Below the pieces are notes generated by a model. It was given only the letters and a program-made list of their open reading frames with translations. It did no database searches and was not told the DNA's origin. A program made the translations under genes and the position numbers. From positions 3,906,001-3,970,000 of the forward strand of contig NC_014666.1 of assembly GCF_000166135.1 (NCBI RefSeq): a stretch of DNA of 64,000 bases, in the 5' to 3' direction. This document shows, piece after piece, positions 23,833 to 38,569 of this stretch. How positions within the stretch are numbered: the stretch's first letter is position 1; each line of letters opens with the position of its first letter. The stretch is from Pseudofrankia inefficax (GTDB taxonomy: Bacteria; Actinomycetota; Actinomycetes; Frankiales; Frankiaceae).

Positions 23833-23839
23833 AGGTCGG

Positions 23840-24835
23840 GTGAAGCTAGGGGCAACGCGTCGCCGCCGGATGGCCGGCGCGCTACTGGGCGCGATCGGCA
23901 TGATCGGTGTGATCGCGGGTTGCGGGAGCTCGTCCGGATCGGCGACCTCGTCGAGCGCCGGTTCGGGCACGGTCAAGGTCAACATCTTCGAGGTCGCGCA
24001 AGCCGACGTCGTCACCACCCTGGAGACGGCGTTCAAGAAGGAGCTCACGGCCAAGCTGGCCGGACGGACGGTCAGCTACAGCGTCAGCAACGCGAACGGC
24101 GATCCGTCCCTGATCCAGAGCATCGCCCGCAACCTTTCCCGGTCCAATTCCTCGCTGATCGCGGTGATCGGCACTCCGGCCGTCATCGCCATGGCGCAGC
24201 AGGACAAGACGCATCCGATCATCGCGCTGGCGATGGGGGATCCGGTCGGCGGCAAGGTGGCCGACAGCCTGGACCACCCCGGCCGCAATGTCACGGGCAC
24301 TATCGACTTCGTCGACCCGGCCAAGCTCCTCGGCGAGCTGGCCAAGGTCACCCCCGCGCCGAGGCGGATCGGGACGATCTACGATCCGTCGAACGAGAAC
24401 AGCCAGGTCTGGGTCGCGCAGCTGCGGACGGCGATCAAGGCTCGGCCCGGTCTCTCCCTGGTCGAGGCGACCGTGGCGGGCGCCGGTGACGTGCAGAGCG
24501 CTGCGCGGTCCCTGGTCGGCCGGACCGACACGATCCTCGTCGGGCCCGACGCGGCCGTGGCGTCGGGCATCGCCGCGGTCGGCGCGGTCGCCCTGTCAAA
24601 CAAGATCCCGCTGTACCTGACGTCGGGAGACGCGACCACGAGCGGGGTGCTGGCCACGCTGGGGCCGAGTTACGCCAACCTCGGCTCGCAGGGCGCCGAC
24701 GTCGCCGTGAAGGTCCTCGACGGTGCCCAGCCGGCGGTCACTCCGTTCGGCCGGCCGGGCGCGCTCGAGTGGGACGTCAACCATTCGACGCTCGGCGCGC
24801 TCGGGGTCACCGTGCCGTCCGCGGCGATGGGCTAG
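23840..24835 (+). CDS. ABC transporter substrate-binding lipoprotein (TrpX/PF04392-like)
   Basis: Extracellular binding protein of about 331 residues. It begins with a basic n-region, a hydrophobic helix and a lipobox (VIAGC), so it is a lipoprotein anchored outside the membrane. The mature part has the two-lobe pattern of PF04392 proteins (VIGTPAVIAMAQQ, HPGRNVTG, RRIGTIYDPSNENS, PLYLTSGD). Some members of this family, such as streptococcal TrpX, bind aromatic amino acids. GTG at 23840 was chosen because GGGAGG precedes it and the signal peptide starts there; a TTG at 23828 is upstream. It is followed by permease and ATPase genes as one operon. An aromatic ligand would suit the neighbouring genes, but this is inference. 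Confidence 0.85.
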   Translation: MKLGATRRRRMAGALLGAIGMIGVIAGCGSSSGSATSSSAGSGTVKVNIFEVAQADVVTTLETAFKKELTAKLAGRTVSYSVSNANGDPSLIQSIARNLSRSNSSLIAVIGTPAVIAMAQQDKTHPIIALAMGDPVGGKVADSLDHPGRNVTGTIDFVDPAKLLGELAKVTPAPRRIGTIYDPSNENSQVWVAQLRTAIKARPGLSLVEATVAGAGDVQSAARSLVGRTDTILVGPDAAVASGIAAVGAVALSNKIPLYLTSGDATTSGVLATLGPSYANLGSQGADVAVKVLDGAQPAVTPFGRPGALEWDVNHSTLGALGVTVPSAAMG

Positions 24836-24837
24836 CC

Positions 24838-25899
24838 GTGCGATTCCTCGTCACCGACACCCTGATCGCCGGTCTGCCGCTGCTGCCGGTCGTCATGGGC
24901 ATCTACCTCGTGGTCCGCATCCGGCAGGACTTCGACCTCACCGTCGACGGAAGCTTCACGTTGGGCGGCGCGATCACCGCGGTGCTGCTCAACCACGGTG
25001 CGGGCGTGCCGCTGGCGATGCTCGTGGCCGTGGCCGGGGCCGCCCTCGCGGGGCTCGTCACGACCGGGCTGCACCTGGCGTTCCGCATCCCGGTCATCCT
25101 GGCCGGCCTGGTCATGAGCATCGGGATGACGACGCTGAACCTGCATGTGCTGGGACGGCCGTCGATCAGCCTGGACAGCGACCGGACCCTGTTCGGCGGC
25201 CTGATCGGCCTGGCTCCCGACGTCCAGGACTGGCTGACGATCGCGATCCTCGCCGCGTTCGCCGCCGTGTTCCTCGCCGCCGTCGGCTACCTGCTGCTCA
25301 CCGAGGTAGGCCTGGCGCTGCGGGCCACCGGGGTCAATCCCCGGATGGCCAGGGCTCAGGGCGTCGACGACCGGCGTTCCCTGGCGCTGTGCCTGGCGCT
25401 GGCCAACGCCAGCGCCGGATTGTCGGGCGCGCTGACCGTGCAGTCCCAGGGCTTCTCCGACTCATCGACCGGCACGGGCACGCTGCTGGCGGGCGTGGGC
25501 GCGGTGATGCTGGGTGAGCTGATCGCCCGGCCGGGCGGGGCGTCCCGGGTCGGCCGGGTGATCGCCGCCGTGGTCGCCGGCACGTTGCTGTACCGGTTCA
25601 TCCTGGTCGGCGCGCTGCGGGCCGGGTTGCAGGCGACCGACCTGTCCGGCATCACCGCGCTCACCCTGGTCGCGGCGGTCGCGCTCAACCGTTATCTGCC
25701 CGAGGTCGGCCGGGTACTCGGCCGGCTCGGCACGGCTGGCCGCGCCGGTACACAGGCGCCGGCGGTGGGCGGCCCGCACATCGCCGAGGTGGCGGGTGGC
25801 CGGCCGGCGCCCGACGACGGGCCGACGATCCCCCCTGCGCGCGAGCCCGCCACCGCCGGGCGGGCCTCGGCCTCAGCGACGATGAAGGAGGCTGGCTGA
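24838..25899 (+). CDS. ABC transporter permease (BPD_transp_2 family)
   Basis: Integral membrane permease of 353 residues with about eight to nine helices, of the type that pairs with PF04392 binding proteins (TrpY-like). Characteristic segments: FDLTVDGSFTLGGAITAVLL near the N-terminus, ALRATGVNPRMARAQGVD (the coupling loop for the ATPase) and LIARPGGASRVGRV. A 60-residue Pro/Ala-rich hydrophilic tail follows the last helix and is unusual. GTG start 2 nt after the binding-protein stop; the stop overlaps the ATPase start by one base (TGATG). Confidence 0.87.
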   Translation: MRFLVTDTLIAGLPLLPVVMGIYLVVRIRQDFDLTVDGSFTLGGAITAVLLNHGAGVPLAMLVAVAGAALAGLVTTGLHLAFRIPVILAGLVMSIGMTTLNLHVLGRPSISLDSDRTLFGGLIGLAPDVQDWLTIAILAAFAAVFLAAVGYLLLTEVGLALRATGVNPRMARAQGVDDRRSLALCLALANASAGLSGALTVQSQGFSDSSTGTGTLLAGVGAVMLGELIARPGGASRVGRVIAAVVAGTLLYRFILVGALRAGLQATDLSGITALTLVAAVALNRYLPEVGRVLGRLGTAGRAGTQAPAVGGPHIAEVAGGRPAPDDGPTIPPAREPATAGRASASATMKEAG

Positions 25900-26690
25900 T
25901 GCTGAGACTGGACGGTGTGCGCCTGGTCCACGGCGCGGGCACCCCGACGGAGGTCGTCGCGCTCGACCACGTCGACCTGGAGATCCCGGCTGGTCAGTTC
26001 GTCACCGTCGTCGGGAGCAACGGCGCCGGCAAGAGCAGCCTGGTCAACGTGGTGGCCGGGGTCTACCGGCCGACCCGGGGGCGGGTGCTGCTCGGCGGCC
26101 GGGACGTGACGCGGCTGGCGGTCCACGCCCGCGCCGGCGCGGTGGCCCGCGTCTTCGACGACCCGCTCGCGGGCACCGCCCCCGATCTCTCCCTGGCCGA
26201 CAACCTCGCTCTCGCCGCCGCCCGCGGCCGCCGGCGGCGGCTGTCGCCCGCCGTCACCCCAGGCCGGCGCGCTGGCATGCGCGAGGACCTCGCCGTGCTC
26301 GGCCTGGGCCTGGAACGCCGCCTCGCCGACCCGGTGACGCTGCTGTCCGCCGGGCAGCGGCAGAGCGTGACGATGCTGATGGCCGGCCTGCGGAAACCCG
26401 AGCTCCTGCTGCTCGATGAGCACCTTGCGGCGCTGGACCCCAGGACCCGGGCGCGGGTCCTCGACCTCACCCTCCAGATGCACGAACGACTGGGCTGCGC
26501 CTCGATAATGATCACCCACAGCATGCGCCACGCGATCGAAGTCGGCGACCGGCTGCTGGTGATGTCCCGCGGCCGGGTCATCTACGACGTCGCCGGGCCC
26601 GCGAAGACGGCGCTGACGCCGTCCGACCTGGTCGACATCGTGTCCGGGCTCGGGGACGCACCGTCGGACCGGCAGCTGCTCGCGGGGTGA
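25899..26690 (+). CDS. ABC transporter ATP-binding protein
   Basis: ATPase subunit of 263 residues completing the importer. Walker A is VGSNGAGKSS, the signature is LSAGQRQ, Walker B is LLLLDEH and the switch histidine is in MITHSM. The signature reads SAGQR rather than SGGQR, as in many TrpZ-like and branched-chain subunits. It overlaps the permease stop. The next gene begins 123 nt downstream and is on the same strand. Confidence 0.9.
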   Translation: MLRLDGVRLVHGAGTPTEVVALDHVDLEIPAGQFVTVVGSNGAGKSSLVNVVAGVYRPTRGRVLLGGRDVTRLAVHARAGAVARVFDDPLAGTAPDLSLADNLALAAARGRRRRLSPAVTPGRRAGMREDLAVLGLGLERRLADPVTLLSAGQRQSVTMLMAGLRKPELLLLDEHLAALDPRTRARVLDLTLQMHERLGCASIMITHSMRHAIEVGDRLLVMSRGRVIYDVAGPAKTALTPSDLVDIVSGLGDAPSDRQLLAG

Positions 26691-26813
26691 CCGGGCCGAC
26701 CGACAGACATCGAGCCTTACCGAAGCGGCGGCCGGGACACAGGCCGTCCGCTCGGCGACGTCCTGATCGCCCGGCACGGCCGCCGATCAGACAGGAGTGG
26801 AGTGGAGTGACAC

Positions 26814-28010
26814 GTGACAGCCACTGACGCCTCGACCCAGGCCGAGATCCCGCCGGCGCGGCCCACCCGGCCGCCGGACGGGACGGCCCCGACCGGGACC
26901 GACCCGAGCCCGTTCGTCTCCTTCACCTCGGCCGACCGGTTCGCCACGGTCGGGGAGATCTACGAGGAGGCCCGTCGCGCGCTGCCCCCGCAGGTGTGGG
27001 ACTTCCTCGACGGTGGTTCGGGCGGCGAGCAGACGCTGCGGGCGAACCTGTCGTCCTTCGAGCGGTGGTCGGTGCTGCCACGGCTGATGACCGGGGCCGG
27101 CGAGCCGGACCTGGCCTGCGCCTTCCTCGGCATCGAGCTGTCGATGCCGGTGCTCACCAGCCCGTTCGGCGCCGACCGGCTGCTGCACCGGGACGGCCAG
27201 CTCGCCGTCGCCCGGGCGAACGCCAAGGCCGGCGTGGCCTCGATCGTGCCGGAGGCCGGGTCGTACTCCTGGGAGGAGGTGGCGACGGCGGCGCCGGGCG
27301 CCGCGCGGATGGCCCAGCTGCACCCGATGGGCAACCCGGCGAACTTCGCCGCGATGCTGCGCCGCGCCGCCGCCGCGGGTTTCAGCGCGCTCTGCCTGAC
27401 CCTGGACTGCCCGACGGCCGGTTGGCGTGAGCGCAACATGCGCAACCGGTTCGACGTGGCCGTCGACGTGGTCAGCGGCAACTACCCGCACGCCGGGCCG
27501 GCCGACCTGGCCGACACCCTTGGCCAGCTGTTCGTCCGCAGGGAGCCGATCTGGACCTGGGACGAGCTCGCCGGGCGGATGGCGGACTCGCCGCTGCCCT
27601 GGATGGCCAAGGGCATCCTCACCGGTTCCGATGCCGAGGCGGCGGTGCTGGCCGGAGCCGCCGCGGTGCTGGTCAGCAACCACGGCGGGCGTCAGCTCGA
27701 CACGGTGCCCGCGGCCCTCGACCAGCTGCCGGAGGTCGTCGCGGCGGTCGGCGGTCGGGTGCCCATCGCGCTGGACTCGGGGATCCGCCGAGGGAGCGAC
27801 GTCGTCAAGGCACTGGCGCTCGGCGCCGACGTCGTCGTCATCGGCCGCGCCGCGGCGATGGCGCTCGCGGCCGGCGGCGAGGAAGGCGTCGGCCGCCTGC
27901 ACGAACTGCTACGCGAGGAGATCTCGACGACCATCAAGCTTCTCGGAGCGAGCGGCGTCGACGAGCTGACCGACACGATGATCAGACCGTCGGCGGTGTC
28001 GCGATGGTGA
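26814..28010 (+). CDS. FMN-dependent 2-hydroxyacid oxidase (lactate/mandelate oxidase family)
   Basis: Alpha-hydroxyacid oxidase of 398 residues with a TIM-barrel FMN fold. The active-site His and Arg are H290 and R293 (SNHGGRQLD), the FMN lysine is K266 (WMAKGI), and the phosphate region is DSGIRRGSDVVKAL and GRAA. Two usual substrate-binding tyrosines appear changed: the DYY motif reads WDFLDGG (about 62-68) and the loop that normally carries the second tyrosine reads QLHPMGNP. Substrate is therefore probably not glycolate or lactate. Relatives include hydroxymandelate oxidase of phenylglycine pathways. It oxidises an L-2-hydroxy acid to the 2-oxo acid with release of peroxide. GTG start after a GGAGTGGAG run; the end overlaps the RidA gene by 7 nt. 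Confidence 0.87.
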   Translation: MTATDASTQAEIPPARPTRPPDGTAPTGTDPSPFVSFTSADRFATVGEIYEEARRALPPQVWDFLDGGSGGEQTLRANLSSFERWSVLPRLMTGAGEPDLACAFLGIELSMPVLTSPFGADRLLHRDGQLAVARANAKAGVASIVPEAGSYSWEEVATAAPGAARMAQLHPMGNPANFAAMLRRAAAAGFSALCLTLDCPTAGWRERNMRNRFDVAVDVVSGNYPHAGPADLADTLGQLFVRREPIWTWDELAGRMADSPLPWMAKGILTGSDAEAAVLAGAAAVLVSNHGGRQLDTVPAALDQLPEVVAAVGGRVPIALDSGIRRGSDVVKALALGADVVVIGRAAAMALAAGGEEGVGRLHELLREEISTTIKLLGASGVDELTDTMIRPSAVSRW

Positions 28011-28429
28011 TCGGCGCGAGGACCGGATCCGTCGACCGGCCACGCGCGACCAGGACGACCGTGCCACTGCCGCCCGGGCTCGCCGGCCTGGCCCCGATCA
28101 GCGCCGCGGTGCGGGTCGGTGACCTGGTCGTGCTCTCGGGCTGCATCGCCCTGGACCCGGCGACCGGCCGGCCGCGCGGCAGCACGACGGTGAGCCAGGC
28201 GCGCGACATCTTCGGCCAGATCGCCGAGGTCCTGGGCCGGGCGGGCGGGCGCCTCGCCGACGTGGTGCGCTGCGTGTGCTACCTGACCGAGGCCGCCGCC
28301 GCGCCGGAGCTCGACGTCGCGTTCCGCGAGGCCTTCCCGGTCGACCCGCCGGCCCGTACGACCGTGGTCTGCGTGCTGTTGCGGCCCGGCCTGCTGGTGG
28401 AGATCGAGGCGACGGCCGTGCTCGGCTGA
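28004..28429 (+). CDS. RidA/YjgF-family protein
   Basis: Small protein of 141 residues with the RidA fold (LVVLSGCIALDP, QARDIFGQIAEVLGRAGGRL, DVVRCVCYLTE, PPARTTVVCVLLRPGLLVEIEA). The arginine that contacts the carboxylate in active RidA proteins sits in PARTTV. RidA deaminates reactive enamine/imine intermediates; paralogues act in aromatic-acid pathways. It overlaps the hydroxyacid oxidase by 7 nt, so it is expected to process an imine or keto product of that enzyme. Confidence 0.82.
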   Translation: MVIGARTGSVDRPRATRTTVPLPPGLAGLAPISAAVRVGDLVVLSGCIALDPATGRPRGSTTVSQARDIFGQIAEVLGRAGGRLADVVRCVCYLTEAAAAPELDVAFREAFPVDPPARTTVVCVLLRPGLLVEIEATAVLG

Positions 28430-28471
28430 GCGCAGGAGGCCGACGGAGCGAAGCAGCGGCACTGAGCGCCT

Positions 28472-28506
28472 GGGCGGCCGGGTAGCCGAGTGCTACTCGG
28501 CCGCCC
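28472..28506. terminator. Bidirectional terminator-like hairpin between ridA-like and tetR genes
   Basis: 14-bp stem with a single G-U type pair: arm GGGCGGCCGGGTAG (28472-28485), 7-nt loop, arm CTACTCGGCCGCCC (28493-28506). The second arm covers the last codons of the convergent tetR gene. Confidence 0.65.
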
Positions 28507-29149
28507 CGGCGGGCCGGCCGAGGGCGCGCAGCACGCTGCCGGTCAGTTCGGCCGCGATGCGCGCGGACGGCCAGCCCAGGCTGTCGTGCAGATCGACGAC
28601 CACCCGCTCGTCGAACACGGTGACCCAGAGGAGCACCCCGTATTCGGCGGGCCGGGGTGGAATGAAACCGGCCTCGGTCAGCGCGGTCAGCAGCGGCGCG
28701 AGCGCCCCGAACAGCCGGCCGATCACCGGGTCGTCCGCGCGCAGCCGCTGCAGGAAACCGCGGGAGGACCGTACGTGCACGACTGCCGGCCCCCAGCTCA
28801 CGGCCTCCCGGACCCACAGCTCGCACACGGCGACGAAACGGCGCAGCACATCCGGCGCGGCAGGCACCGCCTCCATGTGGCTGACCAGGGTCTCCACGAG
28901 CTGCGTGTAATAGGCGTCAAGGGCCGCGTCCACGTCCGGGAAATGTCGATAGGCAGTGGCGGTCGACACACCGGCCTCGGCCGCGAGATCCACGAGGCTG
29001 AACCGCCCGCCCTGTTTCGCGAGCAATCGCTCGGCCGCATCCAGAAGATCCCGCCGGCTCGCCAGGTAATCCCGCCTGATCCGGCGGCTGCCCGGTTCCT
29101 GGCCGCGGATCGAACCACCCGCCGTAGGCGTGTGAACCACCCTTTCCAT
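28493..29149 (-). CDS. TetR-family regulator
   Basis: Regulator of 218 residues. The N-terminal helix-turn-helix is clear (RRDLLDAAERLLAKQGGRFS, LAAEAGVSTATAYRHFPDVD). The C-terminal ligand domain is unassigned. It is divergent from the methyltransferase gene and convergent with the hydroxyacid oxidase/RidA pair, so it probably controls the methyltransferase operon through the 275-bp gap, which contains a TetR-like palindrome at 29207-29220. No strong ribosome-binding site is visible at the ATG. Confidence 0.88.
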   Translation of the reverse strand: MERVVHTPTAGGSIRGQEPGSRRIRRDYLASRRDLLDAAERLLAKQGGRFSLVDLAAEAGVSTATAYRHFPDVDAALDAYYTQLVETLVSHMEAVPAAPDVLRRFVAVCELWVREAVSWGPAVVHVRSSRGFLQRLRADDPVIGRLFGALAPLLTALTEAGFIPPRPAEYGVLLWVTVFDERVVVDLHDSLGWPSARIAAELTGSVLRALGRPAGAAE

Positions 29150-29206
29150 CGCCTAGTCCCGCCGAAACGAGGGAGAAATATGCACCAAGTGTAACATGCC
29201 GATATA

Positions 29207-29220
29207 GAACGTTAACATTC
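29207..29220. promoter_or_regulatory. Candidate TetR operator
   Basis: Inverted repeat GAAcGTTAACaTTC, perfect except for one opposed pair, in an AT-rich patch of an otherwise GC-rich region. It lies just upstream of the putative methyltransferase promoter. Binding is inferred from position. Confidence 0.4.
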
Positions 29221-29226
29221 CTTCGC

Positions 29227-29256
29227 TTGACACTCGGCGACCGACGTCCGCATCAT
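29227..29256 (+). promoter_or_regulatory. Candidate promoter of the methyltransferase operon
   Basis: TTGACA (29227-29232), an 18-nt spacer and CATCAT (29251-29256). The -35 is a consensus match and the -10 is weak. About 170 nt of 5' leader would separate it from the ATG at 29425. Confidence 0.4.
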
Positions 29257-29424
29257 AAATGAAAAGACATTCTCAGTTCGTTGGTCCGATTCTCGTTCGG
29301 TCAACGCCGAACCGCGGCACGCAATAGGCGCCTGCGGTAAACGCTCCCTGGTCGTGCTCATATTCGCGACGGCCCACCGCTGGTAATCCCCATTCCCCCA
29401 CCGGCTCCCAGCGAAGGAATTGCT

Positions 29425-30540
29425 ATGTGCGCCTCCCTTTCGCCACAGCCCGCTCCCTCGGCGGCCCCCACCGCGCCGCCGCCCGCGATCATCGGCCCGG
29501 TGGCCGACCTCTTCTCCTCCTACGTGGCCGCCAGCGCGATCTCAGCCGCCGTCGAGCTCGGCCTGTTCGACACGCTCGCCGATGGCGGCACCTGTCGGGC
29601 AGACGACCTGCGCCATGGCGGCGAGCCGGTGTCGCCCTGGGTCGCGCGAGCCCTGTTCAACGCGCTGGCCTGGGCCGGGATCGTCGAGCTGCACACCTCG
29701 GACCCAGCCCTGCTGGTCCGGCCCGGTCCGCGCTTCGCCGACGCGTACGAGCTGCGCGGCTACTTCTACTGGCTGGTGCGCGGCAACGGCGAGGTGTTCA
29801 CCTACGCGGCCGACCTGGCGCCCGACCGGGACGAGGTCACCTATCACCGCGACATGCGCGCGGTGGCCCTCAGCTCCCGGCTCATGGGCAACGGCGAGGT
29901 CGAGCCTCTGTTCGACCGCGTCCTGGCCGGCCTCGAGTTCAGCCGGGTCGCCGACCTGGGCTGCGGCTCGGGTGGGCGCCTGGTCAGGATCATGAAGCGG
30001 AATCCCGGGGTGACCGGGGTGGGCATCGACCTCGCCCCGGCCTCGGTCGAACTGGCCGGGCAGGTCATCGCGGCCGAGGGCCTGGCCGACCGGCTCAGCG
30101 TGCGCCAGGGCGACGTCCACCGGCTCACCCCCGCCGACGACCTGTCCGACGTCGACGTCGTCACCTGCGTGTTCATGGGCCACGACTTCTGGCCGCGCGA
30201 GTCGTGCGTGCGGGTGCTGACCAACCTGCGGATCGCCTTCCCGAACCTCCGGACGATGCTGCTCTGCGATGTCGTCCGGTCCGAGGACACACCCGGGCCG
30301 GACACGCCCATCTTCCGGCTCGGCTTCGAGGCCGCCCACGCGCTCATGCACACCTACCTGCCGACCGAGGCCGAGTGGGGCGAGGCGTTCGCCGAGGCCG
30401 GCTGGACGCCGCGCGCGGCCCACCACACCACCAGCCCGCCCGGCGGCGTCCTGTTCGAGCTGGTCCCGGTCGCGCCGGCACGCGCCGCCTCCGTGGACGT
30501 CGCGCGGGCAGCCACCGAGACCGTGTCGGCCGCGCGGTGA
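29425..30540 (+). CDS. MppJ-like 2-oxo-acid C-methyltransferase
   Basis: SAM-dependent methyltransferase of 371 residues with an N-terminal dimerisation/winged-helix region and a Rossmann domain (motif I DLGCGSGGR, 177-185). It matches, from memory, the mannopeptimycin enzyme MppJ along much of its length: FMGHDFWPRESCV (250-262), LRIAFPN, LGFEAAHALM (299-308) and YLPTEAEW. The two histidines I recall as iron ligands in MppJ correspond to H253 and H305, with the same 52-residue spacing. MppJ methylates phenylpyruvate at the beta carbon using Fe(III). ATG start after GAAGGAA. It overlaps the next gene by GTGA and is followed by prephenate dehydratase and chorismate mutase, which make phenylpyruvate. 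A plain O-methyltransferase is the alternative but would not explain both histidines. Confidence 0.82.
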   Translation: MCASLSPQPAPSAAPTAPPPAIIGPVADLFSSYVAASAISAAVELGLFDTLADGGTCRADDLRHGGEPVSPWVARALFNALAWAGIVELHTSDPALLVRPGPRFADAYELRGYFYWLVRGNGEVFTYAADLAPDRDEVTYHRDMRAVALSSRLMGNGEVEPLFDRVLAGLEFSRVADLGCGSGGRLVRIMKRNPGVTGVGIDLAPASVELAGQVIAAEGLADRLSVRQGDVHRLTPADDLSDVDVVTCVFMGHDFWPRESCVRVLTNLRIAFPNLRTMLLCDVVRSEDTPGPDTPIFRLGFEAAHALMHTYLPTEAEWGEAFAEAGWTPRAAHHTTSPPGGVLFELVPVAPARAASVDVARAATETVSAAR

Positions 30541-31961
30541 CCACCATCAGCCGGCCGGCCAGGACGGTCCCGGACGCGGACGCCCTCGCCGAACTGGCCG
30601 CCGGGCTCGCGGGCGTGGTGTCGACCCGGCCGGCCGACCTCGACACCCACGGCCGCGACGAGAACCACCTGGACAGCATCCCGCCCCGAGCGGTGGTGTT
30701 CGCCGAGACCCGTGACGACGTCGTCACCACGATGCGATGGTCCGCCCGCCACGGCGTGGCGCTCATCCCGTTCGGTACCGGCACCAGCGCCGAAGGCCAT
30801 GTGGTGCCACTCGGCGGCGAGGTGAGCCTGGACGTCTCCCGGATGAACCGGCTCGTCGCGCTGTGCCCGGAGGACTTCCGCGCGGTCGTGCAGCCGGGCC
30901 TGACCAGGAACGGGCTCAACACCCGGGCGAGGGAGTTCGGGTTGACGTTTCCCGTCGACCCGGGCGCGGACGCGAGCCTCGGCGGGATGGCGGCGACCAA
31001 CGCCAGCGGCACGACCACGATCCGTTACGGCGGCATGCGGGCCAACACCCTGGCCCTGGAGGTCGTGCTGGCCAGCGGTGACGTGCTGCGGCTGGGCCGG
31101 CCAGTCCGCAAGTCGAGCAGCGGCTACGACCTGCGCGACCTGTTCATCGGCTCGGCGGGCACCTTGGGCGTCATCACCGAGCTCACCGTCGCGCTGCACC
31201 CCGTACCCGAGGAGATCGCGGTGCTGCGGGCGTTCTTCCCCGACGTCGCCGCCGCGGTCGCCGGCGCCTTCGCGGCGGTCGGGACGGGGCTGCCCATCGC
31301 CCGCCTCGAGCTGCTCGACGAGATCACCGCCGGCCTGCTGGCCCAGGACGTGCCCGGCCTGGTCCCGGACGCCCCAGCCCTGTTCGTCGAGCTGCACAGC
31401 TCCACCGCGGCCGGCCTGGCCACCGAGCTGGACATCGCCCGCCGAGCCCTGCTCGAGGCCGGCGCGAGCACGGTAGGCACGGCGACCGCGCAGGCGGAGC
31501 GGGAGGCCATCTGGGAAGCACGCCACCGCTTGTTCTGGTCGATCCGCCGGGCCTTCCCCGGCCGGCGATACCTGATCACTGACACGGCTGTGCCGCTGTC
31601 GGCGATCGTCGAGCACGCGCAGGTGATCAGCGAGCTGCGCGCCGATCTCGGGCTGGACGTGGTCACCACCGGCCACGTCGGTGACGGCAACATCCACACC
31701 GTCGTCGCGGTCGCCGAGGGCCAGGACGCCCCGGCCGCGCTGTTCTCGGACGAGTTGGTCCGCCACGCGCTGCGCGTCGGCGGCACCTGCACCGGCGAGC
31801 ACGGCATCGGCGTGAGCAAGCGCCAGTACCTGGCCGCCGAGCACGGCGACGCGGCCCTGTGGATGGCCCGCATCAAGGGCCTGTTCGACCCGGCCAACGT
31901 GCTCAATCCAGGGAAGGTCGTCGGGCCCGACCTGCTGTCGGACGCGCTGACGGCCCGCTAG
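30537..31961 (+). CDS. FAD-linked oxidase, GlcD / D-2-hydroxyacid dehydrogenase family
   Basis: Flavoprotein of 474 residues. The FAD-binding PCMH domain shows PFGTGTSAEGHVVP, VQPGLTRNGLN and TNASGTTTIRYGGMR; the C-terminal domain has TGHVGDGNIHTV with metal/substrate histidines and CTGEHGIGVSKRQYL with NPGKV at the end. These enzymes oxidise D-2-hydroxy acids (D-lactate, glycolate, D-2-hydroxyglutarate) to 2-oxo acids. GTG start overlaps the methyltransferase stop (GTGA). With the L-specific FMN oxidase at 26.8 kb, both hydroxyacid enantiomers could be funnelled to one 2-oxo acid; this is inference. Confidence 0.88.
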   Translation: MTTISRPARTVPDADALAELAAGLAGVVSTRPADLDTHGRDENHLDSIPPRAVVFAETRDDVVTTMRWSARHGVALIPFGTGTSAEGHVVPLGGEVSLDVSRMNRLVALCPEDFRAVVQPGLTRNGLNTRAREFGLTFPVDPGADASLGGMAATNASGTTTIRYGGMRANTLALEVVLASGDVLRLGRPVRKSSSGYDLRDLFIGSAGTLGVITELTVALHPVPEEIAVLRAFFPDVAAAVAGAFAAVGTGLPIARLELLDEITAGLLAQDVPGLVPDAPALFVELHSSTAAGLATELDIARRALLEAGASTVGTATAQAEREAIWEARHRLFWSIRRAFPGRRYLITDTAVPLSAIVEHAQVISELRADLGLDVVTTGHVGDGNIHTVVAVAEGQDAPAALFSDELVRHALRVGGTCTGEHGIGVSKRQYLAAEHGDAALWMARIKGLFDPANVLNPGKVVGPDLLSDALTAR

Positions 31962-32055
31962 TCGCCCGAAGGCTTCACCCACCAGCCGGGGGCCGCTCCC
32001 GGCGGCACCGGCGGCGTCGACCCGTCCCGCGCGTGGAGACCTCCAGGAGTCGGCC

Positions 32056-32985
32056 GTGACCACCACATTCGATCCCGCCCCGGGCGCGTCCGTCGGCTAC
32101 CTCGGACCGGCGGGTACCTTCACCCACCGCACCGTGCTGGCCGATCCGGTCCTGGCCGCGCTGCGGCACGTTCCCTGCGCCGACCCCGACGAGCTCATGG
32201 CCCGGCTCAGCGACGGCTCGGTCACCTACGGCGTGCTGGCCTGGGAGAACTCGGTCGCCGGCCTGGTCGGGCCGACGGCCGACCTGCTCGCCGGCCTGGG
32301 CACCGGAAAGGCCGTGGACCCGTCCGAACGAAGCCAGGCCCGCCTGCACCGCGACGTCGTCATCCCGGTCCGGTTCCAGCTCGTCGGCCTGCACGGTGCC
32401 AGCCCCGAGGCACTGCGCACGGTCTCCTCACATCCGCACGCGCTCGACCAGTGCCGTGCCTGGCTGGCTGAGCACGCCCCGCGGTCCAGCCTGGTCCCGG
32501 CCCCGTCCACGACGGCCGCGCTCGAGCTCGCCCTGGGCGACCCGACCGGCCGAACCGCCGCGGTCACGCCAAACGCCGGCCCCGCCGCCCCGCGGCTCAG
32601 CGTTCTGGCCGACGACATAGGGGAGACCGCCACGGCGGAGACCCGGTTCGTCGTCCTCGGCCGCGACGAGCCGGCCCGCACCGGACGCGAGCGGACGGTC
32701 ATCGCCTGCTTCCAGCAGCGCGACCGGCCCGGATCGCTGATGACCGTCCTCGAACCGTTCGCCCGCGCCGGCATCGACCTGCTCCGGATCGAATCCCGGC
32801 CGACCCGCGACGGGCTGGGCCGCTTCTACTTCCTCATCGAGTGGCGCGGCCATCCCGACGATCCGCCGCCGCGGGCCGTGCTGCGCGAGCTGGCTGAGCG
32901 CGCCGTCCGGGTCCGCGTGCTCGGCACCTTCGACGAGCCCAGCCCCAGTCGCCCCACGCCCAGCCGGCCCAGGAAGGCCGGGTGA
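32056..32985 (+). CDS. pheA: Prephenate dehydratase with ACT domain
   Basis: Monofunctional PheA-type enzyme of 309 residues that converts prephenate to phenylpyruvate. The catalytic domain opens with YLGPAGTFTH, then WENSVAGLV, SHPHALDQCRAWL, and the catalytic TRF motif in TAETRFVVLGR. The ACT domain has RPGSLMTVLEPFARAGIDLL and IESRPT, the phenylalanine-binding region, so feedback control may persist. GTG start with GGAG upstream. It lies 94 nt after the FAD oxidase. Being inside a methyltransferase/exporter cluster, it may be a pathway copy that raises the phenylpyruvate supply. Confidence 0.9.
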   Translation: MTTTFDPAPGASVGYLGPAGTFTHRTVLADPVLAALRHVPCADPDELMARLSDGSVTYGVLAWENSVAGLVGPTADLLAGLGTGKAVDPSERSQARLHRDVVIPVRFQLVGLHGASPEALRTVSSHPHALDQCRAWLAEHAPRSSLVPAPSTTAALELALGDPTGRTAAVTPNAGPAAPRLSVLADDIGETATAETRFVVLGRDEPARTGRERTVIACFQQRDRPGSLMTVLEPFARAGIDLLRIESRPTRDGLGRFYFLIEWRGHPDDPPPRAVLRELAERAVRVRVLGTFDEPSPSRPTPSRPRKAG

Positions 32986-33125
32986 CCAAGGTGGACGCGC
33001 CCCGGCCCGTTGGGACTGCTGCGCCGGCCGTGGCCGCCTCCCTGCTGGCCGCGCTGGTCCGCGGGCACTGCCAGGCCGGCCCGGCCGAGACCGGCAGTCA
33101 CGAACGACGACGAAGGAGACCCGCC

Positions 33126-33173
33126 ATGCGCTTGCAGACCGGCCGAACCTGCTCTCGGGACGTGCCGCGGTGA
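33126..33173 (+). CDS. 15-codon leader-like ORF upstream of chorismate mutase
   Basis: ATG preceded by GAAGGAGAC at ideal spacing, encoding MRLQTGRTCSRDVPR, with the stop overlapping the chorismate mutase GTG (GTGA). The ribosome-binding site is the best in the neighbourhood, and chorismate mutase has none of its own, so translation of this ORF probably drives re-initiation. The same frame is open back to a GTG at 32982 that overlaps the pheA stop, giving a 63-residue alternative. It resembles the short actinobacterial leader peptides that begin MRL, but is not rich in Phe, Tyr or Trp, so ordinary attenuation is not indicated. Confidence 0.5.
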   Translation: MRLQTGRTCSRDVPR

Positions 33174-33571
33174 CGGCCGGCGAGCTCGACGCGCGACCGC
33201 ACCCGGCACCGATCCGGTCCCGGCCGACCGGCCTCGACCTGCTCGGCCCCGAGGCCCCGGACATCGCCACGATCGACTCGGTGACTGGGGGCCGCGAGAT
33301 CATCGACGAGCTCGACGACCTGATCCGCGACGTGATCGTGCTGCGGCGTCGGGTGGCCTGGCGGATACAGAAGCTGCGGATGACCGCCGGCGGAGGGCGG
33401 ATCGAGATGAGCCGCGAGTACGAGGTCACCCGCAGGTTCCTGGACGCGCTCGGCCCAGCCGGCAGCGAGGTCGCGGTGGCGTTGCTTCTGCTGTGCCGAG
33501 GGCCGGCCCCGTCGGTCGACGTCCGTCCGTCCACCGAACATGACATCGACGCCGGTCACGCCGCTCGCTGA
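33170..33571 (+). CDS. Chorismate mutase, AroQ (MtCM-like) type
   Basis: Protein of 133 residues. Residues about 42-110 match the secreted-less mycobacterial-type AroQ fold: EIIDELDDLIRDVIVLRRRV, WRIQKLRMTAGGGRIEMSRE and FLDALGPAG..VAVALLLLCRG. The pattern R..I.K.RM..GG.R...SRE..V is that of Rv0948c. It converts chorismate to prephenate, the substrate of the adjacent prephenate dehydratase. Rv0948c is activated by DAHP synthase through its C-terminus (RLGH end); here the C-terminal ~25 residues differ, so partner control may be absent. N-terminal ~40 residues are variable. Confidence 0.87.
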   Translation: MTAGELDARPHPAPIRSRPTGLDLLGPEAPDIATIDSVTGGREIIDELDDLIRDVIVLRRRVAWRIQKLRMTAGGGRIEMSREYEVTRRFLDALGPAGSEVAVALLLLCRGPAPSVDVRPSTEHDIDAGHAAR

Positions 33572-33701
33572 GAGTGTCGGGCTGTGAGGAGGACCGACGG
33601 ATGAGTGTGGCTGTCAGCGGACCAGGCGGCTGTGGAACACCTGGTCGCCCGACGCGGTCTCCGGCCCGAACGGTGCCGCGCCGGCCATGGTGGGTTAGCC
33701 G

Positions 33702-35192
33702 GTGAGCCTGCGGACGCCCAGCACGGCGGAGGCGACCGTCGCGGGCGGGAACGCCGGCGCCGACCAGCCCGTGGCTGGATGCTGGAGCCGCCGGGACTGG
33801 TCGGTGTTGCTCATCACCTGCGTCGGGCTGTTCGTCACCCAGCTGGATCTGACCGTCGTCAACGTGGCGGTCGGCGCGATCGGTCGCCGGCTGCACGCGT
33901 CCACCGGCGCGGTCACCTGGGTGGTCGACGGGTATTTCGTGACGTTCGCCGCGTTCATGATCGGTTTTGGCGACGTCGGCGACCTGTTCGGGCGCAGACG
34001 GGTCTTCCTGGCCGGACTGGCCGGCTTCGCGGCGGCGTCGACTGGTTGCGCGGCCGCGCCCGGAGTCGGCTGGCTGATCCTGTTCCGCACCCTGCAGGGC
34101 GTCGCCGGCGCTGCCATCCTCGTCTCTTCGCTCGCCATCCTCGCCGACGCCTTCGACGGGACAGACCGCACCCGCGCGATCGGCGTGTGGTCGGCCGTGG
34201 CCGGCATCGCCCTGGTCGTCGGCCCACTCGTCGGTGGTCTGGTCGTGGACGGACTGGGGTGGCGGTGGATCTTCTGGATCAACGTGCCGATCTCGTTGGT
34301 GAGCATCGCGGCCGGGCGCAGGGTGCTGCGCGAGTCGCGTCGCGGCGGCCACGACCGCCAACTCGACCGCGGCGGCCAGATCCTCGCCGTTCTCATGCTG
34401 GGCGCCCTGGCCTGGGGGCTGTCGGAGACAGCCGCGGAGCCTGGGTCGGTCATCGGGTGGCTGGCGCTCGGCGCCTCGGTCCTGCTCGCGGCGGGATTCG
34501 TCGCGGTGGAGCGCCGGTGCGCGACGCCGCTCGTGCCACTGTCGGTGTTCCGTTCGCGAACGTTCCGGGGCGCCAACCTCGCCTCGCTGCTGGTCAACTT
34601 CGCGACTCTCGGTCTGCTCTACCTGCTCAGCCTCGATTTCGAGCATGTGGACGGCCGGTCAGCCACCGCTACGGGCATCCGCATCGCTCCGCTGTTCGCG
34701 GCCTATGCCGCCGTCAGCATGCTCGCCGGGCGGATCGCCGACCGGTTCGGCCAGCGCGTCCCGGGGACGCTTGGCGGCTTGGCCGCCGGTACGGGTGTCG
34801 CGCTCGTCGCAGTCGAGCGGGCGTCGGGAGCCGCTGCCGGCGCCGGTCTGGTACTCGCGGGCGTGGGCATCGGGCTGGCGCTGCCGGCGGTGGTGTCGAG
34901 CGCGGTCACGGCCGTCCCGGGAGCGCGGGCCGGCCTCGGGTCCGGGCTGAACAACACCGCCCGCCAGATCGGCGGAACCCTCGGCATCGCGCTGCTCGGC
35001 GGAGTAGTCGCGGGCGCCGGAAGTGAGCGGGCGGGTATCGGCCGAGCGCTCATCGCGGTCGCGGCCGCATATACCGTCGCGGCCGCCCTCGCGGCTTCGA
35101 CCCTGCGGCGCCCGACCCCCGCTCGGGGCGGCCCTGCGCACATCCCGAGCCCCGGTGGTAGCGACGGTCATCACGGAAGGCAGCAGCCATGA
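33702..35192 (+). CDS. DHA2-family (EmrB/QacA-type) MFS exporter
   Basis: Fourteen-helix MFS antiporter of 496 residues. Diagnostic motifs: LDLTVVNVAVGAI in helix 1, DLFGRRRVFLAG in loop 2-3, LFRTLQGVAGAAI in helix 4, GPLVGGLVVDGLGWRWIFW in helix 5 and NNTARQIGGTLGIALLG in helix 13. GTG start. It overlaps the YciI-like gene by ATGA. Likely exports the cluster product or protects against it. Confidence 0.9.
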   Translation: MSLRTPSTAEATVAGGNAGADQPVAGCWSRRDWSVLLITCVGLFVTQLDLTVVNVAVGAIGRRLHASTGAVTWVVDGYFVTFAAFMIGFGDVGDLFGRRRVFLAGLAGFAAASTGCAAAPGVGWLILFRTLQGVAGAAILVSSLAILADAFDGTDRTRAIGVWSAVAGIALVVGPLVGGLVVDGLGWRWIFWINVPISLVSIAAGRRVLRESRRGGHDRQLDRGGQILAVLMLGALAWGLSETAAEPGSVIGWLALGASVLLAAGFVAVERRCATPLVPLSVFRSRTFRGANLASLLVNFATLGLLYLLSLDFEHVDGRSATATGIRIAPLFAAYAAVSMLAGRIADRFGQRVPGTLGGLAAGTGVALVAVERASGAAAGAGLVLAGVGIGLALPAVVSSAVTAVPGARAGLGSGLNNTARQIGGTLGIALLGGVVAGAGSERAGIGRALIAVAAAYTVAAALAASTLRRPTPARGGPAHIPSPGGSDGHHGRQQP

Positions 35193-35539
35193 TCGTACTA
35201 GTTCTCTGCCGCGACCGGCCCGGCACCCAGGAACTCCGCCGCACGATCCGGCCCGCGCACCTCGAGTACATGATGGCCGCCCGGTCGAGGCTGGTCTTCG
35301 GTGGCCCGCTGACCGCCGAGGACGGGCTCGCCATCGGTGCGGTGTTCGCGCTGCGAGTGGCCACGACGTCCGAAGCCTCGCGGTTCCTCGCGGGCGAGCC
35401 CTACCACCAGGCCGGAGTGTTCGAGTCGGTCGTCGTCCATCCCATGCGCCAGATGGTTCCCGAGGACCCACCCGGGCTGCTCGACGCCGAGCTGGACCGG
35501 GCTCGGGCGGCGGCGGCCGACGCCACCGTGTCGTCCTAG
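35189..35539 (+). CDS. YciI-like protein
   Basis: Small ferredoxin-fold protein of 116 residues: RPAHLEYMMAARSRLVFGGPL carries the conserved His and the following helix; EASRFLAGEPYHQAGVFESVVV completes the domain. YciI proteins are often found in catabolic or antibiotic clusters; some act as dehalogenases or 2-oxo-acid tautomerase-like proteins, but many have no known reaction. Coupled to the exporter by ATGA overlap. Confidence 0.75.
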   Translation: MIVLVLCRDRPGTQELRRTIRPAHLEYMMAARSRLVFGGPLTAEDGLAIGAVFALRVATTSEASRFLAGEPYHQAGVFESVVVHPMRQMVPEDPPGLLDAELDRARAAAADATVSS

Positions 35540-35742
35540 GCGCCGCCTGGAGCCGAAACCGGGCGCTATTCATCGCGGCGGCGACGGAGCGGACAACACC
35601 GTTCTGCTCGAGCCTCCTCGGTCATCCGCGAATAGCGCCTTCTCCGCGTTGACTGACACGCCAGCGTCGCCGACGCCGCTGGGTTGGCGGAGCCCGTTTC
35701 CCTGCCGCGGAAAAGCGGCTGTAGCGACCTGGAGAAAAGGCC

Positions 35743-37215
35743 ATGACATCTGCTGTCGGCGTCGGCGAACCGTCCCTGGCGGCTCGGCTCGATCGCCTGC
35801 CGGTTGGCAGGATCCACCTCGTCGCGGTCATCTGCGTCGGGCTCGGGTTCTTCTTCGACACCTATGAGGTGTTCCTGGCCGGCACGTTGTCGGTCGTGCT
35901 GAAGCGGAGCTTCGGATTCGGCGGGGATTCGCTCAAGCTCCTGCTGGCCAGTGCCTTCGTGGGCCAGTTTGTCGGCGCGCTGGTACTCGGCCGGCTGGCC
36001 GACCGCATCGGCCGCCGCAGCGCGTTCTTGCTGAACCTGCTCATCTACTCGGTGTTCTCACTGGTCGGCGGGCTGGCGCCGAACGTCGAGGTCCTCGTCG
36101 GCGCGCGGTTCCTGGCCGGGATGGGGCTGGGGGCTGAGCTCACGCTCGGCGACTCCTACCTGTCCGATCTGCTGCCACCGCGGGCGCGCGGCCGGCTCAT
36201 TGCCGTCGCGTACACGATCGGCTTCCTTGGCGTCCCGGCCGCCGGGTTTCTCGGCCGCGGGCTCGTGGCGCGCAGTCCGGTCGGCGTCGACGGATGGCGC
36301 TGGATGTTCTTCCTCGGCGCTCTCGGCGCCGTGCTGGTGTGGGCGCTGCGCCGGGTACTGCCCGAGTCGCCGCGCTGGCTGGAGTCGGTCGGGCGGCACG
36401 AGGAGGCCGACCGCATCGTCACCGCGTGGGAGACCGACGCCGTCCGGCGTGGGCACGCCCTTTCCGAACCGGCCCCCGTCCCGGGCCCGGCGGCGCCTCC
36501 CGAGACGGCACCGCGGCGCCCGCCGTTCCGCGTGCTGTTCACCGGGCCGTTCCTACGGCGCACCGTGATGGCCTGGATCATGAACGTGATGTCGGCGATC
36601 GGCTACTACGGATTCGGCACGATCGCGACCCTGGTGCTGGTCGCGAAGGGCTACACGGTGCTTACCTCGCTGAGCTTCCTCGCCCTCACCTATGTTGGCT
36701 ATCCGCTCGGCTCGCTGCTGTCGCTGCCGGTGATCGAACGCTTCGAGCGTCGCGCCATCGTGGCGGTCTCGGCCAGTGGAATGGCCGTCACCGGGCTGCT
36801 GTTCGGGTTCGCCGGTTCCGGCACCACCGTGGTCCTGTGGGGAACCCTGTTTACCTTGATCAGCAACGTCTACTCCAACGGTTACCACGTCTTTACGGCC
36901 GAGCTGTACCCGACCGCGATGCGTGCCACGGCGGTCGGCGCGGCGTACGCGCTGAGCCGGCTCGTCACCGCCGCGCTGCCATTCGTCCTCATCCCCGTCC
37001 TCGACCACGCCGGGTCGGGAGCGGTGTTCACCGTGGTCGCCGCCGCCCTGGTCATCCTGGCCCTCGACGTCCTCGCGCTCGGGCCACGCACCACGGGACT
37101 GCCGGTGGACGAGGCCGCCGCTCTGCCCCAACAGCGGCCGGCGCCAGCACCCGCCGCGCGCGAACTGACACCGGCGCTGGAACTGGACCAGCCCGGTGGG
37201 CCGCGGCATGCCTGA
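35743..37215 (+). CDS. MFS transporter, sugar/aromatic-acid porter type
   Basis: Twelve-helix MFS protein of 490 residues. RLADRIGRRSAFLLNLLIYS and FLAGMGLGAELTLGDSYLSDLLPPRARGRL resemble NiaP- and AAHS-like carriers, and LPESPRWLES precedes the long central loop. ATG after GGAGAAAAGG. Such carriers usually take up organic acids such as benzoate or nicotinate. The C-terminus overlaps the second M20 gene, so uptake or release and hydrolysis may be coupled. Confidence 0.87.
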   Translation: MTSAVGVGEPSLAARLDRLPVGRIHLVAVICVGLGFFFDTYEVFLAGTLSVVLKRSFGFGGDSLKLLLASAFVGQFVGALVLGRLADRIGRRSAFLLNLLIYSVFSLVGGLAPNVEVLVGARFLAGMGLGAELTLGDSYLSDLLPPRARGRLIAVAYTIGFLGVPAAGFLGRGLVARSPVGVDGWRWMFFLGALGAVLVWALRRVLPESPRWLESVGRHEEADRIVTAWETDAVRRGHALSEPAPVPGPAAPPETAPRRPPFRVLFTGPFLRRTVMAWIMNVMSAIGYYGFGTIATLVLVAKGYTVLTSLSFLALTYVGYPLGSLLSLPVIERFERRAIVAVSASGMAVTGLLFGFAGSGTTVVLWGTLFTLISNVYSNGYHVFTAELYPTAMRATAVGAAYALSRLVTAALPFVLIPVLDHAGSGAVFTVVAAALVILALDVLALGPRTTGLPVDEAAALPQQRPAPAPAARELTPALELDQPGGPRHA

Positions 37216-38569
37216 CGGCGCGACCCCGGCGGTCGCGGCCGCCGGGATCGCCGCGGGCGAGCGTGCCCCCCGTTCCGCGGCCGACGCCGCCGTGGCCATC
37301 TGCGCCGACCTGCTGCGGATCGACACCTCCAACTACGGCACCGACGATGGCCCGGGCGAGCGCACCGCGGCGGAATACTGCGCGACCGTTCTGGCCGACG
37401 CGGGCCTGCCTGTGGAGATCATCGAACCCCGCCCCCGACGCACCACGGTCATGGCGCGCTGGCCCGGACTGGACCGAACACGGCCGCCGCTCCTCATCCA
37501 CGCCCACACCGACGTCGTCCCGGCGGAACCGGCCATCTGGAGCAGGCACCCGTTCGGAGCCGAGCTGGCGGACGGATGCCTGTGGGGTCGCGGTGCGGTC
37601 GACATGAAGTACTTCGTGGCCCAGGTGCTTGCGGTGATCCGGGCCTGGTCAGGCAGCGGGCAGCGGCCGGCCCGTGACATCGTGCTCGCCTTCGTCGCCG
37701 ACGAGGAGAACGGCGGCCATCTGGGCGCGCGGTGGCTGGTCGAGCATCGTCGCGACCTACTGGACGACTGCACCGAGGCCATCGGAGAGGTCGGCGGGTA
37801 CTCGGCGCGGCTGCCCACCGGGCAGCGGCTGTACTTCATCGAGACCGGGCAGAAGGGCGTCCTCTGGTTCGAGGTCACCGCGCGCGGTCCCGCCGGGCAC
37901 GCATCGATGATCAATGACGGTAACAGCGTGGTGAACCTGGCCGAGGTTGTCGCTCGCATCGGCCGGCACGAGTTCCCGTACCGCCTCACCCCGACCACGC
38001 GCGCCCTGCTGCAGACCGTCGCCGACTGCGTCGGCGAACCGTTCGATCCGGTCGACCCAGAAGCGTTGCTGCGCCACCTCGGCCCGGCCGCCCGCATGAT
38101 CGCTTCGTCGCTGCGCGACGTCGCCTCGCCGACCGAGTTGGCCGCGGGCGGAAAGACGAACGTCATACCGCCGCACGCCACGGCGCGGTTTGACTGCCGT
38201 TTCCTGCCCGGCTCCGAAGAAGCCTGCGCGGCGCGCATGCGCGAGCTGATCGGGCCGGGCGTCGAGCACCAGATCGTCTACCGCGCCATCGCGGTGGAGA
38301 CCGAGTTCAGTGGGCCGGTCAGCGAGGCGATCAGGCAGGCAGTCATCGCCACCGATCCCGGCGCCATCACCGTTCCCTACCTCCTGCCCGCGGGCAGCGA
38401 CGCCAAGCACTTCAGCCAGCTCGGCATCAACTGTTTCGGATTCGCTCCACTGCAATTGCCCGACGGTTTCGACTTCCCCGCGGCCTTCCACGGCGTGGAC
38501 GAGCGTGTGCCGGTCGACGCGATCCGCGCCGGAGTCGCCATCCTGGAACGATTCCTGCAGTTGTGCTGA
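37208..38569 (+). CDS. M20-family metallohydrolase, copy 2
   Basis: Paralogue of the hydrolase at 12095-13489, about 453 residues from the ATG at 37208 (a GTG at 37196 is possible). M20 motifs: HAHTDVVP, WGRGAVDMKY, VADEENGG, AIGEVGGYS and FHGVDERVPVD. It overlaps the MFS gene by 8 nt. Likely removes an N-acyl group or cleaves a small peptide; with the carrier it could process an imported or exported conjugate. Two such paralogues bracketing the region suggest a shared origin and related substrates. Confidence 0.88.
   Translation: MPDGATPAVAAAGIAAGERAPRSAADAAVAICADLLRIDTSNYGTDDGPGERTAAEYCATVLADAGLPVEIIEPRPRRTTVMARWPGLDRTRPPLLIHAHTDVVPAEPAIWSRHPFGAELADGCLWGRGAVDMKYFVAQVLAVIRAWSGSGQRPARDIVLAFVADEENGGHLGARWLVEHRRDLLDDCTEAIGEVGGYSARLPTGQRLYFIETGQKGVLWFEVTARGPAGHASMINDGNSVVNLAEVVARIGRHEFPYRLTPTTRALLQTVADCVGEPFDPVDPEALLRHLGPAARMIASSLRDVASPTELAAGGKTNVIPPHATARFDCRFLPGSEEACAARMRELIGPGVEHQIVYRAIAVETEFSGPVSEAIRQAVIATDPGAITVPYLLPAGSDAKHFSQLGINCFGFAPLQLPDGFDFPAAFHGVDERVPVDAIRAGVAILERFLQLC

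Follow-up and report, generated by a model that had tools for sequence, protein, structure and literature searches.

An apparently mobile Pseudofrankia operon that probably makes beta-methylated phenylpyruvate, with no assembly line found nearby

In this work we describe eight co-directional genes (positions 29425–38569) in a stretch of 64,000 nucleotides of the Pseudofrankia inefficax genome, hereafter the window (bases 3906001–3970000 of a single 8,815,781-bp contig). The genes start with a methyltransferase (MT) related to MppJ, include a prephenate dehydratase and a chorismate mutase, and probably constitute an operon dedicated to making and handling beta-methylated phenylpyruvate, which appears to spread by horizontal transfer. 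The MT family is already known; what is new here is the predicted formation of a beta-methyl keto acid with a built-in phenylpyruvate supply and with no assembly line found nearby. No publication describing the cluster in its title or abstract was present among the matches listed, a coverage that mostly leaves out the subscription literature.

Results and discussion

The methyltransferase is of the MppJ type

The closest solved relative of the MT (METHYLTRANSFERASE) by sequence is MppJ (4kib, phmmer E 1.9e-66, 40% identity); after the MppJ variants, the next match in the PDB is 8ftr, an SgvM entry (E 3.7e-19). A family scan identified an S-adenosylmethionine (SAM) methyltransferase with an O-methyltransferase-like dimerisation domain, and the NCBIfam model for 2-ketoarginine methyltransferase reached 60 bits, for a cut-off of 425. 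An AlphaFold2 model built from a 36-row alignment (mean pLDDT 88.7, pTM 0.82) gave the same answer, as MppJ entries occupy Foldseek ranks 1–15 (TMt 0.88 and root-mean-square deviation 2.3 for 4kib), with SgvM and MrsA behind them (TMt 0.68–0.80, and 19–27% identity in the fold alignments). The initial annotation of this DNA had proposed an MppJ-like enzyme with H253 and H305 as its hallmark, and sequence, fold and residues all agree with it; the peptides that it quoted (MGHDFWPRES, LGFEAAH and YLPTEAEW) are present. The possibility that the best homologue would be a plant-type O-methyltransferase devoid of the conserved histidines was also considered, and is ruled out by the MppJ matches in both searches, Pfam Methyltransf_2 giving only 34 bits.

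Residues H253, H305, R142, D254 and W116 align with H243, H295, R127, D244 and W99 of MppJ, and none of the five varies across the 82 rows, which comprise the MT, MppJ and 80 MppJ-like loci (the best 80 of 103 relatives, which came from 145 stretches in one pattern-based scan of species genomes). The metal of MppJ is iron; we take H243 and H295 to be its two ligands, R127 to bind the acid, and D244 to act as the residue adjoining the first histidine. In the SgvM structure, H244 and H296 hold zinc, and the keto acid is bound to the metal (PMC10502145, in excerpt). The alignment with the MppJ ligands, together with this zinc site, indicates that the MT probably has a two-histidine metal site, in which either iron or zinc is possible.

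The operon encodes its own phenylpyruvate supply

The MT is followed in the same direction by a flavin adenine dinucleotide (FAD) oxidase, a prephenate dehydratase and a chorismate mutase. The prephenate dehydratase matches PF00800 (125 bits) and the ACT domain PF01842; it stays under the equivalog cut-off of NCBIfam PRK11898 (206.7 for 219), and it carries ETRF, in which the TRF motif presumably plays its usual role in this enzyme. The chorismate mutase, recognised by PRK07857, scores 42.9 with TIGR01808, under the cut-off of 52.15, and has no Pfam match. Aligned with 5mpv, it retains the Arg, Arg, Lys and SRE residues that we take to form the active site. The genome encodes a second protein of each kind, which scores higher than the island copy (205 vs 127 bits for prephenate dehydratase, 109 vs 81 bits for chorismate mutase), and the copies beside the MT are therefore extra ones. 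The proposal that these two enzymes make phenylpyruvate next to the MT is supported by their families and their active-site motifs.

This arrangement is particular to Pseudofrankia among the loci compared. When the island proteins were used as tblastn queries against the 80 loci (flanks of up to 10 kb, E 1e-6, 40% coverage), the prephenate dehydratase, the chorismate mutase and the FAD oxidase were found only at the two Pseudofrankia loci, with no match at the 78 others. In a class-wide sample, six of 393 genomes have a prephenate dehydratase match of E 1e-45 or better, namely the four island carriers and two with 40% identity.

The FAD oxidase has FAD_binding_4 and FAD-oxidase_C domains, and its closest PDB match is a mitochondrial 'probable D-lactate dehydrogenase' (E 1.2e-97; Table 1). 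Members of the D-lactate dehydrogenase family oxidise D-2-hydroxy acids, and because of this proximity the enzyme probably converts phenyllactate, methylated or not, back into the 2-oxo acid.

Extent of the operon

The initial annotation described the MT, FAD oxidase, prephenate dehydratase and chorismate mutase as four genes in one direction, separated by short gaps or overlaps, at 29425–33571. All four are there and the coordinates are right. The description of the spacing was generous, as a 4-bp overlap between the first two genes is followed by gaps of 94 bp and 184 bp, and the interval ends too early: four more genes follow in the same direction, for a DHA2-type transporter of the major facilitator superfamily (MFS), a YciI-family protein, an MFS permease and an M20 hydrolase, and the surrounding island is larger still (Table 1).

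The 184-bp gap holds a 15-codon open reading frame (ORF) whose stop overlaps the start codon of the chorismate mutase gene and which has a single variable residue across four genomes; it is possibly a coupling device or a leader peptide. A 34-amino-acid (aa) ORF ahead of the DHA2 gene is not conserved and was dropped. In one of the related genomes (G032), the gap between the prephenate dehydratase and chorismate mutase genes (32986–33169 in the window) encodes a C-terminal MFS transporter fragment with 54% identity to residues 338–445 of the island DHA2 protein. Less of it remains in another genome (G030), and most of it is gone from the window and a third genome (G028). To judge from these remnants, the operon contains a decaying transporter gene.

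Table 1. Positions in the window of the operon genes and of the features around them
Feature	Position	Strand	Basis
MppJ/SbzD-type alpha-keto acid beta-C-methyltransferase (MT), 371 aa	29425..30540	+	phmmer, Foldseek, invariant residues, tree
GlcD/LDHD-like FAD-dependent D-2-hydroxyacid dehydrogenase (FAD oxidase)	30537..31961	+	family searches, PDB match 8jdc
Prephenate dehydratase with ACT domain, second genomic copy	32056..32985	+	family and genome searches
15-aa mini-ORF with GAAGGAG ribosome-binding site	33126..33173	+	present in 4/4 island genomes
AroQ-type chorismate mutase, second genomic copy	33170..33571	+	PRK07857 81 bits, cut-off 73; 5mpv alignment
DHA2-type MFS efflux transporter	33702..35192	+	efflux_EmrB 212 bits, under its cut-off of 230
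YciI-family protein	35189..35539	+	family searches
MFS permease, aromatic-acid:H+ symporter type	35743..37215	+	below NCBIfam cut-off
M20 hydrolase, PRK07906 subfamily (aminoacylase/deacylase-like)	37196..38569	+	family searches
Module A: ATP-binding cassette (ABC) importer (TrpX-like binding protein, permease, ATPase)	23828..26690	+	family searches
Module A: flavin mononucleotide (FMN)-dependent alpha-hydroxyacid-oxidase-like enzyme and RidA-type protein, overlapping	26814..28429	+	family searches, alignments
Module A: TetR regulator	28493..29149	-	assigned to module A by co-occurrence
Conserved, apparently mobile island with both modules	23585..38622	.	93–97% DNA matches in three other Pseudofrankia genomes

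The operon lies in an island that looks horizontally acquired

The operon occupies the right part of an island of about 15 kb, which matches G028, G030 and G032 with sharp ends, its leftmost 104 bp being matched in G028 and G032 only. Outside the island, the flanks compared (3.5–25 kb on each side, blastn pieces of at least 60 bp) share only a 145-bp piece at 91% identity, on the right side of G028 and G030, and an 86-bp piece at 74%; at the protein level, the other genes of the window have only weak paralogues in these flanks. At a 901-bp housekeeping locus around the other prephenate dehydratase gene, two relatives without the MT show 98% and 93% identity, as against only 87–88% for the three genomes that share the island. 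Since the island itself is 93–97% identical in those three genomes, and since its surroundings are unlike, it looks horizontally acquired rather than inherited by descent, as judged with this one housekeeping marker. In G030, an ORF that by eye resembles a transposase lies some 0.4 kb outside the island. An empty insertion site could not be demonstrated, as nothing closely matching the left flank turned up in the four relatives compared (68–70% identical MFS paralogues in three, short stretches only in the fourth). MT loci matching at 96–98% are present in Pseudofrankia asymbiotica NRRL B-16386 and Pseudofrankia sp. BMG5.36.

The MT is present in four of the eight genomes of the genus and four of the 35 of the family. 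The FAD oxidase and the MFS permease (35743) are found in the same four of 35, which indicates that the gene set is not assembled by chance; within the genus, the prephenate dehydratase also follows the MT in these four genomes. The ratio of nonsynonymous to synonymous changes (dN/dS), calculated against three genomes for each of the 14 island genes, is below 1 in every case save one of three RidA comparisons (1.04); it is 0.26–0.29 for the MT, 0.27–0.49 for the prephenate dehydratase and 0.27–0.67 for the chorismate mutase. No MT relative was confirmed on viral contigs, and those on plasmids (12 of 72,556 records) are only 30–42% identical and belong to Streptomyces and Embleya. The window encodes a second M20 hydrolase of the PRK07906 subfamily (12095–13489, minus strand), and the M20 copies at the right end of the island in the other genomes match this second protein at about 51%.

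Assembly lines and the fate of the product

No match to an adenylation (A) or condensation (C) domain of a non-ribosomal peptide synthetase (NRPS) was found by tblastn in the window, in G028 or in G032, the rest of the genome not being searched for NRPS; the queries were two AMP-binding proteins and one C-A protein from MppJ-like loci, carrier proteins not being searched separately. In G030, one place resembling a stand-alone AMP-binding protein lies about 14 kb from the island (best E 1e-16). The claim that the operon comes without an NRPS is thus borne out locally, at the scale of the window and these two sister regions. By contrast, the premise that an NRPS normally consumes such a product does not hold as a general rule: A/C-domain matches are present at 55 of the 80 MppJ-like loci and absent from up to 25. 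This last figure is an upper bound; it includes the two Pseudofrankia loci and 10 others with a flank shorter than 10 kb on one or both sides. Pieces that look NRPS-like or carrier-like by eye were missed by the queries at no fewer than two loci (L056 and L076).

Because neither an NRPS nor a ligase was recognised in the surroundings, the most likely product is a free small acid, that is, a beta-methyl 2-oxo, 2-hydroxy or amino acid, the amino acid form requiring a host aminotransferase. The earlier suggestion of a beta-methylated aromatic 2-oxo acid released as a free small molecule or a conjugate is therefore partly supported, by the MT family, the phenylpyruvate supply and the local absence of NRPS matches, while the argument from an NRPS norm falls away.

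Alternatively, the operon could be a precursor cassette separated from its assembly line, supplying beta-methylphenylalanine, formed by host transamination, to an NRPS or ligase whose gene lies in another part of the genome. Mannopeptimycin is an NRPS product, and the A/C-domain matches at most MppJ-like loci point the same way. JomM is encoded alongside an NRPS (PMC6117699, in excerpt), and SbzD alongside an A domain and carrier proteins (PMC6331615, in excerpt). Nevertheless, we regard this alternative as unlikely: the island has unlike surroundings in four genomes, so that a remote partner would be needed in all four, the flanks of three of them contain no NRPS and those of the fourth only the stand-alone AMP-binding-like place, and the operon has its own pump.

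Phenylpyruvate is the likely substrate

In the MT tree, the window MT falls in a 12-row clade separate from MppJ, at a starred node (support 100/96). Its nearest group in this clade consists of five Streptomyces MTs of SB-203208-type clusters; the support for this pairing (94/89) is below the starred threshold, and several end branches of the tree are long. The window MT is 51–56% identical to these five proteins and has the active-site segments RGYFYW, RDMRAVA, TCVFMGHDFWP, LCDVVRS and PPGG in common with them, some of which are lacking in MppJ. All five loci (L030 and L034–L037) have genes near the MT that by eye are isoleucyl-tRNA synthetase (IleRS)-like, AMP-binding-like and carrier-like, and a 346-aa gene. 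Pfam scanning of six genes of L036 gave AMP-binding twice, an aldehyde dehydrogenase, a luciferase-like protein, a tRNA synthetase, and no family for the 346-aa gene; the AMP-binding gene of L030 was scanned as well. These loci are taken as those of SbzD orthologues because their gene content fits the described SB-203208 cluster, the SbzD sequence itself not entering the comparison. SbzD is reported to share 40% of its residues with MppJ, the same figure as for the window MT, and the product of the SbzD cluster bears (2S,3R)-beta-methylphenylalanine (PMC6331615, in excerpt), which makes this the nearest clade of known chemistry. The SbzD-type neighbours, the shared active-site segments, and the presence beside the MT of extra copies of the enzymes leading from chorismate to phenylpyruvate suggest that phenylpyruvate is the likely substrate.

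The MT could instead act on another alpha-keto acid (4-hydroxyphenylpyruvate, indolepyruvate or an aliphatic one), with the prephenate dehydratase and chorismate mutase only raising phenylalanine. The metal-binding and acid-binding residues, identical in all 82 rows, are compatible with this, and the same two-histidine site serves SgvM in the methylation of alpha-ketoleucine (PMC10502145, in excerpt). We find it rather improbable, as the two supply enzymes give phenylpyruvate and not 4-hydroxyphenylpyruvate, and as the nearest clade is that of SbzD, whose product contains the beta-methylphenylalanine just mentioned.

The operon and module A appear to be separate units

The left part of the island, module A, comprises the ABC importer, the FMN enzyme, RidA and TetR. 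In the stretches compared, it recurs without the MT genes in other Frankiaceae (L126–L129). Copies are found in G029 (82–90% identity) and, as a second copy devoid of RidA, in G032 (83–89%); more distant ones are those of G002 (73–80%, cut by a contig end) and G001 (41–62%). Across five copies, RidA is present in three and TetR in four (L128 is cut by a contig end). The TetR copies beside MT-less modules are 84–87% identical in L126 and L127 and 47% in L129, and TetR and the short stretch before it travel with module A. TetR is therefore not taken as a proven regulator of the MT operon. The idea that the whole island is one functional unit is weakened by this recurrence, and by its distribution the MT operon appears to be a separate cassette placed behind module A.

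The FMN enzyme (26814–28010) scores 353 bits with Pfam FMN_dh. In its alignment, Phe and His replace both lactate oxidase active-site tyrosines, to which we assign the role presumed in lactate and glycolate oxidases, so that the tyrosine test for an L-alpha-hydroxyacid oxidase is negative. Our guess is that the enzyme carries out an imine-forming oxidation, cleaned up by the adjoining RidA.

A scavenging role for the whole 15-kb island, in which plant aromatics would be imported and converted by the FMN and FAD oxidases and RidA to 2-oxo acids, methylation being a minor tailoring step, would account for two importers, an M20 hydrolase, RidA and two 2-hydroxyacid-oxidase-like enzymes in a genus of nodule isolates (PMC9680954, in excerpt), yet it is the least probable of the alternatives, since chorismate mutase and prephenate dehydratase are anabolic, the operon includes an efflux-type transporter, and the import and FMN oxidase module is found alone elsewhere.

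Proposed function of the operon

In the proposed pathway, chorismate mutase and prephenate dehydratase would convert chorismate via prephenate to phenylpyruvate, outside the housekeeping pathway. Phenylpyruvate would bind to the metal held by H253 and H305 of the MT, be enolised, and receive the SAM methyl group on its beta carbon, to give beta-methylphenylpyruvate. The FAD oxidase probably regenerates the 2-oxo acid by oxidising a D-2-hydroxy acid, either D-phenyllactate or the beta-methyl derivative of it. To judge from its family alone, the DHA2 pump may export the product, and the aromatic-acid permease and the M20 hydrolase may move or release related acids. A bolder version, which we put forward only tentatively, is that of a mobile and self-contained operon leading from chorismate to a free, exported metabolite of the beta-methylated phenylpyruvate family (a 2-oxo, 2-hydroxy or amino acid) without any assembly line, the compound being a secreted antimetabolite of nodule-associated actinobacteria or a signal towards the plant or competitors. 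Pseudofrankia is known as a genus of nodule isolates (PMC9680954, in excerpt).

Several observations weigh against the production of beta-methylated phenylpyruvate as a dedicated function. The NRPS searches covered only the 64-kb window and the sister flanks, which leaves room for an NRPS elsewhere in the genome, and no aminotransferase, ligase or acyltransferase that would name the product was recognised in the operon. The M20 hydrolase and the YciI protein have no obvious step, and module A, which recurs without the MT, may be unrelated to the operon. Finally, the invariant MT residues are common to keto-acid C-methyltransferases with other substrates and so do not prove phenylpyruvate, and the pairing with the SbzD group lies beneath the starred support.

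If beta-methylated phenylpyruvate is indeed made, the operon is a compact gene set that could turn primary metabolites into beta-methylphenylpyruvate or beta-methylphenylalanine, a help in producing non-standard amino acids, and Pseudofrankia would have a small molecule that is still undescribed. It would also show that MppJ-like methyltransferases should not automatically be filed as NRPS precursor genes.

Comparison with known systems

In indolmycin biosynthesis, too, an aromatic 2-oxo acid is beta-methylated on the way to a small molecule made without NRPS, the indolepyruvate C-methyltransferase being clustered with a ligase and a reductase. The Pseudofrankia operon differs by its substrate, which is an indole in indolmycin, and counterparts of the ligase and reductase were not recognised in it. 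MppJ is encoded in an NRPS cluster, and resembles the window MT in identity, fold, metal ligands and the equivalents of R127, D244 and W99; the Pseudofrankia operon differs from its cluster in that it encodes a chorismate mutase and a prephenate dehydratase of its own and that no NRPS was found nearby. The reaction of MppJ is the beta-C-methylation of phenylpyruvate (PMC11496134, in excerpt). JomM of jomthonic acid is likewise an MppJ-like MT (55% identical to MppJ) that serves a beta-methylphenylalanine core, but within a polyketide synthase-NRPS cluster (PMC6117699, in excerpt). SbzD (SB-203208/altemicidin) works with an IleRS-like transferase, a stand-alone A domain, a GNAT acyltransferase and carrier proteins (PMC6331615, in excerpt), none of which was recognised in the Pseudofrankia island, and conversely the SbzD-type loci have no prephenate dehydratase or chorismate mutase match. 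Compared with these three assembly-line systems, the island stands out by giving no A/C-domain match beside the MT in the window, G028 and G032. SgvM (viridogrisein) and MrsA (ketoarginine) have the same alpha-keto acid C-methyltransferase fold, but differ from the window MT by their low identity and their aliphatic or guanidino keto acids.

Other MppJ-like loci

Other members of the SbzD clade have different neighbours. L038 has genes for a phosphoenolpyruvate mutase and a thiamine pyrophosphate enzyme within 10 kb of the MT, and similar thiamine diphosphate (ThDP)-like fragments were seen by eye near that of L032; phosphonates with a beta-methyl aromatic part are possible products. The MTs of L031 and L033 (Micromonospora) adjoin tryptophan-halogenase-like and radical SAM genes (scanned in L031), and a C-A NRPS piece is also present in L033.

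Elsewhere in the tree, a ThDP enzyme is encoded directly after the MT in 17 of the 80 loci (L058, L069, L071, L076, L077 and L081–L092), which form one clade; these enzymes are 55–100% identical to the L069 protein, and three were scanned with Pfam. A ThDP acyloin enzyme is described in a review of carbazole biosynthesis, and a match of these loci to that pathway was considered and not made, the word methyltransferase being absent from the main text of the review as excerpted (PMC7466098). The MT and ThDP genes look like a two-gene module combining formation of a beta-methyl keto acid with acyloin or decarboxylation chemistry.

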